Below, piece by piece: positions 8,534 through 55,626 of a stretch of 64,000 nucleotides of DNA. Positions within the stretch are counted from its first letter, which is position 1. Every line of letters begins with the position of its first letter. Position numbers and translations under genes: made by a program. The notes beneath the pieces are model-generated. The model saw only the letters and a program-made list of their open reading frames with translations. It made no database searches and had not been told where the DNA came from. Origin of the DNA: Mycobacterium branderi (GTDB lineage Bacteria > Actinomycetota > Actinomycetes > Mycobacteriales > Mycobacteriaceae); the NCBI RefSeq assembly GCF_010728725.1, contig NZ_AP022606.1, positions 1,240,001 to 1,304,000 on the forward strand, given 5' to 3'.

Positions 8534-8594
8534 CGCGAAAGTGCAACTGGCGACACGTTTCTCGAGTGCGACCGCCGATAGTTGCACTCTCGCG
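8534..8594. repeat. 61-bp intergenic palindrome (3'-end repeat family)
   Basis: The arms CGCGAAAGTGCAACT (8534-8548) and AGTTGCACTCTCGCG (8580-8594) pair over 14 of 15 positions around a 31-nt loop. It starts two bases after the ligase stop and lies between convergent genes, so it could end transcription from both sides. It has the same length as the copies at 19223, 54604 and 55566, and its ends match the copy at 22499. Confidence 0.75.
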
Positions 8595-19222: not shown

Positions 19223-19283
19223 GCCGAGTGTGCGGTTATGCCACGCTTTTTCGCTCCGACCGTGCATTAAGTCCACACTCGGC
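19223..19283. repeat. 61-bp intergenic palindrome (3'-end repeat family)
   Basis: Arms GCCGAGTGTG and CACACTCGGC pair at the outer ends, with an imperfect inner stem. The 5' part ends TTATGCCACG, as in the copy at 54604. Read on the minus strand it encodes AECGLNARSERKSVA and a stop, a close match to the tail of the DUF559 protein at 54617. It lies between fadE3 and the hydrolase gene. Confidence 0.75.
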
Positions 19284-54603: not shown

Positions 54604-54664
54604 GCCGAGTGTGGACTTATGCCACGTATCGGCGCCGGAAACGTTCCTCAAGTCCACAATCGGC
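54604..54664. repeat. 61-bp palindrome that encodes the end of the DUF559 gene
   Basis: Arms GCCGAGTGTGGACTT (54604-54618) and AAGTCCACAATCGGC (54650-54664) pair at 14 of 15 positions. It starts three bases after the sigG stop. On the minus strand it encodes ADCGLEERFRRRYVA and the TAA stop of the DUF559 gene, so the repeat is partly coding. Confidence 0.8.
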
Positions 54665-55531
54665 GAGCCAGGTGCAGCCAGCGGCCTGCAGAGCATCACA
54701 TGTGCGAACCACCACGACATCGGACCGATACCGCAGCATGTCACCGCTGACATGCACCAGCCGCCAGCCGAGCGCGGCAAGCTCGGCCTGCCGATCGACG
54801 TCGGCGGTCCGTATCGCCGGATCGGTCCAGTGTTGCGGACCGTCGAACTCCACGCCGACCTTCCACTCGTCGTATCCCATGTCGATGCGGGCGAACGGAA
54901 TACCGTAACGATCGCGTACGACGATCTGCGTCTTTGGTTTTGGCAGTCCAGCACGGACGAGCACGAGCCGCGTCCGCGTTTCCTGTGGCGATTCCGCGCC
55001 GCCGTCCATCAGCTCCAGAACTCGCCGCAATTGGATGAGCCCACGCGCGCCGCGATGATTTTGGCCGACGGATTCAATACTGACTGGATTGACGCCGGTT
55101 GCGTTGGCGAGCGCATCCAGTCGAATCACCGCCGTAGTCACGCCTTTCCGGCGAGCTAGGTCGAAGGCTGTGCGCGCCGGTGTGGTCACTGGCATCCCAC
55201 GGACCAGACAGCTCTCGTCATCCCGAAGTTTCTCGCGATGGATGACAATGCCGTCGACATTGCACGCCTCAGTCCGATTCAACTCCGCAGGGAGCCGGGG
55301 ATCGATCCAGTTTGAACCATGCAGCGCGGCGGCCGACAGGCCAGCGACCGTGGCAGCTCGTCCGGACCACAGCCAGGCCGCGATCCCTTTCGTGACGGCG
55401 GTCAACTCGTGACCCCTCGGCACGTAGACATTGCGATAGATCATCTCATGTCGGCTGCGTAAGGTGCGCTTGGTAACTCGTCCTTCCGCCAATGCTTCGG
55501 TGCCGACAAACGGCCAACCATGCTCCCCCAT
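54617..55531 (-). CDS. DUF559 (Vsr-like nuclease) protein with AbiEi-type N-terminus
   Basis: A 304-residue protein. The N-terminal part resembles the AbiEi winged-helix/antitoxin domain (RVTKRTLRSRHEMIYRNVYV, then GLSAAALHG). The C-terminal part is a DUF559 fold of the Vsr/PD-(D/E)XK nuclease group: Asp in FARIDMGY, Glu and Asp in VGVEFDGPQHW, and DVDRQAELAALGWRLVHV. No toxin gene is adjacent. AAGG lies seven bases before the ATG. The last 15 codons and stop come from a 61-bp palindromic repeat, and a second copy lies upstream. This suggests a mobile or recombining unit. Confidence 0.75.
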   Translation of the reverse strand: MGEHGWPFVGTEALAEGRVTKRTLRSRHEMIYRNVYVPRGHELTAVTKGIAAWLWSGRAATVAGLSAAALHGSNWIDPRLPAELNRTEACNVDGIVIHREKLRDDESCLVRGMPVTTPARTAFDLARRKGVTTAVIRLDALANATGVNPVSIESVGQNHRGARGLIQLRRVLELMDGGAESPQETRTRLVLVRAGLPKPKTQIVVRDRYGIPFARIDMGYDEWKVGVEFDGPQHWTDPAIRTADVDRQAELAALGWRLVHVSGDMLRYRSDVVVVRTCDALQAAGCTWLADCGLEERFRRRYVA

Positions 55532-55565
55532 GCGCTGACCTTGTCAGCACCGGCCGACAGCGCAA

Positions 55566-55626
55566 GTCGAATGTGGGCTTCTGCAACGTCGCTTGTGGAA
55601 AAGCGTTGATTAAGTCCACATTCGGC
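55566..55626. repeat. 61-bp palindrome upstream of the DUF559 gene
   Basis: Arms GTCGAATGTGGGCTT and AAGTCCACATTCGGC pair at 13 of 15 positions. It begins three bases past the dehydrogenase stop and ends 34 bases before the DUF559 start. Its minus strand would read AECGLNQRF, like the DUF559 tail, but has no stop at that place. Confidence 0.75.

Follow-up and report, generated by a model that had tools for sequence, protein, structure and literature searches.

Why should a nuclease-like gene of Mycobacterium branderi lie between two long palindromes, one of which supplies its last codons? A sequence-only reading of the window (the whole stretch of 64,000 nucleotides analyzed here) had placed a 61-bp palindrome on either side of this gene and a third copy elsewhere, and all of these positions were confirmed (Table 1). 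The last 15 codons of the ORF (ADCGLEERFRRRYVA) and its stop lie inside palindrome A, as had been claimed, and the minus strand of palindrome C still reads AECGLNARSERKSVA followed by a stop. A and B are imperfect, with best arms of 27 nt at 78% and 21 nt at 81% complementarity. Four copies in the window were detected, with E-values of 2e-5 or better, by R1, a covariance model built from such palindromes; A, B and C were in its training set and the fourth was absent from it. This fourth copy is of the AGTGCAACTGGCGAC family, a type not seen at any of the genome's six nuclease loci. The gene showed a dN/dS of 0.13 against its orthologue in relative G071, and the adjoining ORFs, read by eye, are a sigma factor and an unrelated enzyme.

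Table 1. Positions of the nuclease gene, its two halves and the palindromes in the window.
Feature	Position	Strand	Remark
Nuclease gene, AbiEi-EDxHD/Vsr-like	54617..55531	-	304 aa, intact ORF
AbiEi-type DNA-binding half (modeled)	55004..55531	-	residues 1-176, AF2 model
EDxHD/Vsr-type nuclease half (modeled)	54674..55000	-	residues 178-286, AF2 model
Palindrome A	54604..54664	.	57-bp core 54606-54662; downstream of nuclease gene
Palindrome B	55566..55626	.	core 55568-55624; upstream of nuclease gene
Solo palindrome C, family of A/B	19223..19283	.	core 19225-19281; shortly behind gene end
Solo palindrome (L210), AGTGCAACTGGCGAC type, other family than A/B/C	8536..8592	.	R1 match, E 9.1e-11

The protein had been labeled DUF559. 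This family was among its Pfam matches, but the name is a loose one: MTES_1575 REase (PF18741) scored best (30.7 bits versus a cut-off of 38.2), AbiEi_1 and DUF559 were weaker, and all three remained under their own cut-offs. NCBIfam gave no usable name. Because PF04480 alone matched nothing in this genome, searches were based on the protein and on alignments. The AF2 model (pLDDT 92.1, pTM 0.88) matched AbiEi and I-Bth0305I/Vsr in its two halves, which together covered nearly the whole protein, with weak Foldseek E-values (best, 7.5e-3). Its catalytic half was nearest to the homing endonuclease I-Bth0305I (top match, tied with 3hrl) and to an endonuclease-like protein. In this model an AbiEi-type DNA-binding half is joined to a nuclease of EDxHD/Vsr type; with the motif assigned by eye, D217, H234 and D244 were invariant among 42 sequences and E184 was present in at least 90% of them. 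Neither the model nor the Pfam matches, which were only the three named above, pointed to an HUH/Y1 tyrosine transposase. Chains of the mitoribosome, FASTKD4 and nucleotidyltransferases also came up as structural relatives and were set aside as shared folds.

The arrangement of the window locus could be compared with 113 nuclease loci, of which 80 were nearly all from Mycobacteriaceae (one Williamsia, one Rhodococcus) and 33 came from further genomes, including the six of this genome. Two duplicates (L088 and L150) reduced these to 111 distinct loci, and L029 and L043 were excluded (contig ends); the duplicates are still inside the 113-locus palindrome counts and the counts of orientation and stop position. 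Upstream and downstream flanks of the same locus aligned with a median score of 33 versus 17 for mismatched loci. A score of at least 30 was reached by 78 of 111 distinct loci, compared with 4.6% of mismatched pairs and 17 of 324 pairs of distal windows, and a score of at least 25 by 93 of 111 loci versus 58 of 324. Palindromes scoring at least 12 were found in 62/113 upstream and 75/113 downstream flanks, and in 0/110 and 1/113 of the respective distal control windows, so that the bracketing is not due to chance. Among the distinct loci, 88 of 111 had at least one such palindrome, and 47 had one at either end. The pairs were mostly direct repeats (35 direct, 7 inverted and 2 tied at the 44 loci with both palindromes called). 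Whether other nuclease genes end in the element, a check proposed earlier, could be read from the 66 intact genes for which a downstream palindrome was called: 63 stop inside it (36) or at most 10 bp before it (27), and the others stop 143 bp before it (one) or beyond it (two). Bracketing of these genes by cognate palindromes is real and general.

The 5.98-Mb genome contains six nuclease loci and six palindrome types, each type flanking its own locus on both sides; of the twelve flanking copies, three were shortened, decayed or displaced. Besides the window locus (type TGTGGACTT), these loci are L009 (GACTGCGGTTTCGTACG; upstream copy about 440 bp off), L010 (CGAGCGTGAACTTAGG; downstream copy shortened), L011 (GTTGAGATTGC), L012 (CGACACTTAAAC) and L013/L014 (CGAGTGTGAAATC; upstream copy decayed). 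In two of the six paralogs, L011 and L013/L014, the frame is broken by a stop or frameshift and the palindromes remain. At L010:1395-1450 and the orthologous sites L246, L253 and L256, the 57-bp dyad consists of two halves that are short palindromes in their own right (e.g., GTGCGGCcAGCCGCAC), which gives this lineage four-fold symmetry; other families show milder traces.

Palindromes were also abundant away from the gene. With the best 150 of 1889 candidates scored, R1 gave 122 strand matches in this genome (G000) at an E-value of 0.1, representing at least 43 distinct sites, two of which are A and B and at least 41 of which are away from nuclease loci. The solo sample consisted of 39 of the other 41 listed R1 sites, plus the 2380-kb site. 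By eye, the 39 solos comprised about 12 of the GTGGCCA type, 7 of AACGTGAAACTG, 6 of AGTGCAACT, 6 of GTGTGAATC, 5 of TGTGG, 2 of AACGTCGACTTG and 1 other, and about 27 of them, again by eye, belonged to types for which no nuclease was seen in this genome. Thirty-six of 39 lay at most 60 bp behind a gene end (38% of random window positions did so) and 21 of 39 between two gene ends (4%), and by a crude open-frame test 18 of the 39 fell inside an open frame, compared with 90% of random positions. Since the solos are full-length dyads of 55–57 bp from several families, the earlier suggestion that they are 3'-end relics of lost genes is disfavored as a general rule. Single solos may be such relics, because one site can hold a module in one species and a solo in another. 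In G405, another genome of the class, five 69-bp palindromes with an identical score of 40.2 bits were located on different contigs, and 30 R1 strand matches were found versus only 2 nuclease matches, which looks like a recent burst of solos.

Sites in relatives were inspected with tblastn for the nuclease and by eye, within 260 bp, for palindromes. At the window site, the 10 relatives included two with a module of the same type (G071 and G318), one with a GTGGCCA-type module (G379) and seven with neither module nor palindrome. At the L012 site, 3 of 12 relatives had modules (one of the same type, two of another), one (G071) had a solo of the L011 type, and eight had neither, one of these being on a contig that ends after 164 bases. 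The empty sites that the sequence-only reading had proposed to look for were thus found. At the L011 site, five of seven relatives had modules of two types and two had solos of other families, and at the L010 site all 12 relatives had a module, the palindromes diverging in step. By tblastn, the G379 nuclease was 69% identical to that of the window over 267 aa (in 304 aligned codons, 62.5%, with a dS of 1.27) and the G318 nuclease 88% identical over 284, whereas the flanks of both were 89% identical to the window flank. Because the G379 flank is as distant as that of G318 and its nuclease far more diverged, this module was most likely exchanged and not merely diverged. Solo sites behaved similarly by eye: in 30 comparisons at 14 sites (2 of 16 gave no locus), 11 had the same family, 6 a changed but related one, 3 an unrelated family and 10 none or a remnant. 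In these comparisons, palindrome family and nuclease type are replaced at fixed sites between close relatives. No insertion junction or target duplication was readable at empty and solo sites in three attempts because the intergenic DNA had diverged. Two single sites may be mentioned. In L308 (G071), compared with L204 of this genome at the same site, the left arm GTGGCCACTT had become GTGTGGACTT and the right arm matched neither, which looks half-converted, and L307 (G318), orthologous to the L201 solo site, retained only the two palindrome ends, suggesting an internal deletion.

The gene itself appeared to stay in place. Among the 111 distinct loci, few per genome, both flanks were shared in all 17 nuclease pairs with at least 85% identity, and near-identical modules at different sites were found in none of them. 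For pairs of 80–85% identity, both flanks were shared in 36 of 43 and neither in 1, and for pairs of 75–80% in 46 of 74 and neither in 10. The 17 close pairs indicate that the gene is sedentary; it is the solo palindromes that are numerous. The REP/RAYT-like partnership proposed in the sequence-only reading therefore held strongly as an association (6/6 loci of this genome, 78/111 overall and 19/39 outside the genus), but its suggestion that nuclease and repeat spread together was not supported.

We conclude that the gene and its palindromes probably constitute a REP-like partnership of nuclease and repeat with one sedentary enzyme per palindrome type, in which the enzyme would bind and cut the palindrome and the palindrome would move. 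A pair of proteins may read both arms of the double-stranded palindrome through their AbiEi halves, and the nuclease halves would then nick or cut at the bound palindrome. Repair of the break could copy, rewrite or remove palindromes, and sometimes the whole module, at existing sites, and in this way a sedentary enzyme, one per palindrome type, would sustain a non-autonomous palindrome population. The upstream copy may double as an operator for self-repression. A further-reaching version, for which we see equal grounds for belief and doubt, is that this is a second, independently evolved REP/RAYT-type system, in which an AbiEi-addressed EDxHD nuclease reads double-stranded dyads of about 57 bp, break and repair maintain and rewrite palindromes genome-wide at fixed intergenic sites, and specificity and sequence turn over together across actinobacteria.

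The direct orientation of the pairs and the reuse of sites would also allow a homing-type cycle in which solo and module alternate. In such a selfish element, the nuclease would cut the cognate solo, repair from the module via the flanking palindromes would copy the gene in, and a cut module would return to a solo by recombination between direct repeats. This is possible, although we think it rather unlikely. The modeled similarity of the catalytic half to I-Bth0305I and an endonuclease-like protein, the 35 of 44 direct pairs, the occurrence of module, solo or empty site at one position in different relatives and the exchange of a whole module at the window site in G379 are all consistent with it. 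However, an occupied allele has two intact palindromes and would stay cleavable, near-identical modules at different sites were absent (17 of 17 pairs of at least 85% identity shared both flanks), and cutting of cognate sites alone leaves the replacement of one family by an unrelated one without explanation.

The proposed partnership of nuclease and repeat also draws on the architecture of the palindromes, part of which would fit a role in the host as well. The dyads are imperfect and about 57 bp long, with 22-bp arms and a 13-bp centre. Palindromes scoring at least 9.8 were trimmed by a rule that requires CG...CG ends, favors A/T third bases and prefers lengths near 57 within 53–59, so that the rule itself produces the invariant CGA/TCG as well as part of the peak at 57 bp (82/126); one of the 55 listed (L149) is not a true palindrome. 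The two arms covaried, with 215 both-side changes versus a shuffled mean of 85 (0/500 shuffles); four of five measures exceeded all 500 shuffles, and the fifth was weak (19 pairs with a both-side change versus 17.0; 39/500). Mismatches of GT and AC type numbered 118 and 114, with no sign of a preferred strand, as for a symmetric double-stranded DNA site, although transcription from both sides would give the same parity. An RNA hairpin of one strand was rejected by this parity, and Rfam gave nothing at gathering scores. In alignment A2, made from 38 palindromes chosen by hand (A, B and C among them), neither GTAG nor CGTC was conserved within the 57 aligned columns, the bases outside the core being unaligned. 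Across 72 loci (71 of them distinct), palindrome distance correlated with protein distance for residues 61–175 (rho 0.53; partial 0.48 given the nuclease half) and less for the nuclease half (rho 0.25; partial 0.02 given residues 61–175). In these comparisons palindrome divergence tracks the AbiEi half and not the nuclease half. The AbiEi-family protein Rv2827c is reported to bind inverted repeats of 23 bp that are paired across a 13-bp gap (PMC7319586), and I-Bth0305I to dimerize on a target nearly 60 bp long (PMC3943268).

If the palindromes served the host only, the upstream copy would be an AbiEi-type autoregulatory operator, copies elsewhere would be bidirectional terminators at gene ends, and nothing would move. 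The AbiEi-type geometry and upstream position, the location of solos behind gene ends and the GT/AC parity all agree with this. Yet neither role needs a downstream copy that matches the upstream one, nor families common to many unlinked solos, a preferred length of about 57 bp or the replacement of one family by another at a fixed site, and we regard this explanation as improbable.

The nuclease occurred in all 41 sampled mycobacterial genomes, with 2–19 matches each, and its profile matched 86 of 108 genomes of the class. At an E-value of 1e-4 with strict filters, R1 palindromes were found in 16 of the 86 nuclease-positive and in none of the 22 nuclease-negative class genomes (one-sided p 0.019, uncorrected for relatedness; 5 of the 16 belong to the training genus). 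The link would have looked accidental with the element equally common where the nuclease is lacking, and this was not observed. R1 was trained almost wholly on mycobacterial dyads, and it matched only these 16 of 86. When 39 loci outside the genus were inspected directly, palindromes scoring at least 12 were present upstream in 24, downstream in 26 and on both sides in 19, versus 3 of 39 in a control window of the same size inside the gene; 20 of 39 had no clear pair at the sensitivity used. Upstream and downstream flanks of these distant loci matched with a median of 48.5, versus a high 26 for the mismatched control. Examples of their palindrome types are TTGATCTTGGAGTAA (L171 and L172), GTTGATCATGG (L177 and L179) and GTTGAGTGTGACG (L168). 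Viral contigs, searched with two peptide patterns, and phage records contained no nuclease relative, and distant relatives came up in only 8 plasmid records; cargo of phages or plasmids was rejected on these grounds.

A gene with matching ends and many short copies having those ends is also what a conventional transposon, with its terminal inverted repeats and MITE-like derivatives, would give. Such a transposon is very unlikely here: the ends are mostly direct, near-identical modules at different sites were absent among the 111 loci, and the viral, phage and plasmid records just described offer no close relative. Chance or a tool artefact is practically negligible, for although GC-rich DNA gives some matches (the 58 of 324 distal pairs reaching a score of 25), the distal palindrome controls were nearly empty, no shuffle equaled the covariation on four of five measures, and the pattern recurs in other genera.

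With the nuclease in 41/41 mycobacterial and 86/108 class genomes, an unexplained actinobacterial family gains a likely substrate. If the partnership is true, unrelated enzymes have on at least two occasions given rise to populations of palindromic repeats run by a dedicated nuclease, and a selfish system, not mere termination of transcription, would account for dozens of the palindromes between mycobacterial genes. One protein and one 57-bp site provide a direct biochemical test, and the natural series of protein and site pairs could be used to read the recognition code.

Among the matches listed in open-access literature, which hardly covers subscription journals and preprints, nothing in the parts seen linked this nuclease family to palindromes. 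Several known systems share some of its features. The AbiEi antitoxins (S. agalactiae AbiEi and M. tuberculosis Rv2827c) have the two-domain fold predicted for residues 1–176, and the repeats of Rv2827c are likewise upstream of the gene. In contrast to these type IV toxin-antitoxin systems, a nuclease is fused on in the model, palindromes are also downstream and solo, and no toxin gene was recognized beside the window gene, whose neighbors were read by eye. I-Bth0305I has the same EDxHD/Vsr-like catalytic fold, as judged from the model, and a dimer target of similar length, whereas the DNA-binding half here is predicted to be AbiEi-type and the gene is free-standing: it does not interrupt its putative recognition site and lies between two whole target-like palindromes. 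In TIRYT/TIRtron systems, as described in PMC3733652, a transposase-type gene is similarly placed between long terminal repeats, which are found on their own as well, but those enzymes are tyrosine transposases. The closest likeness is to REPtrons (REP/REPIN with RAYT/TnpA-REP), which are described as having a sedentary gene and many palindromes (PMC3116915, PMC8266576, PMC3733652). Both have a sedentary gene flanked by cognate palindromes (here 78/111 loci versus 17/324 distal pairs), numerous extragenic solos and several diverged families per genome. They differ in the enzyme, HUH/Y1 in REPtrons and AbiEi plus EDxHD/Vsr-type in our model, and in the elements, which are 20–40 bp for REP and dyads of about 57 bp here, with no strand preference seen and no GTAG tag conserved within the aligned core. 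The system looks like an undescribed counterpart of REP/RAYT built on an unrelated enzyme.
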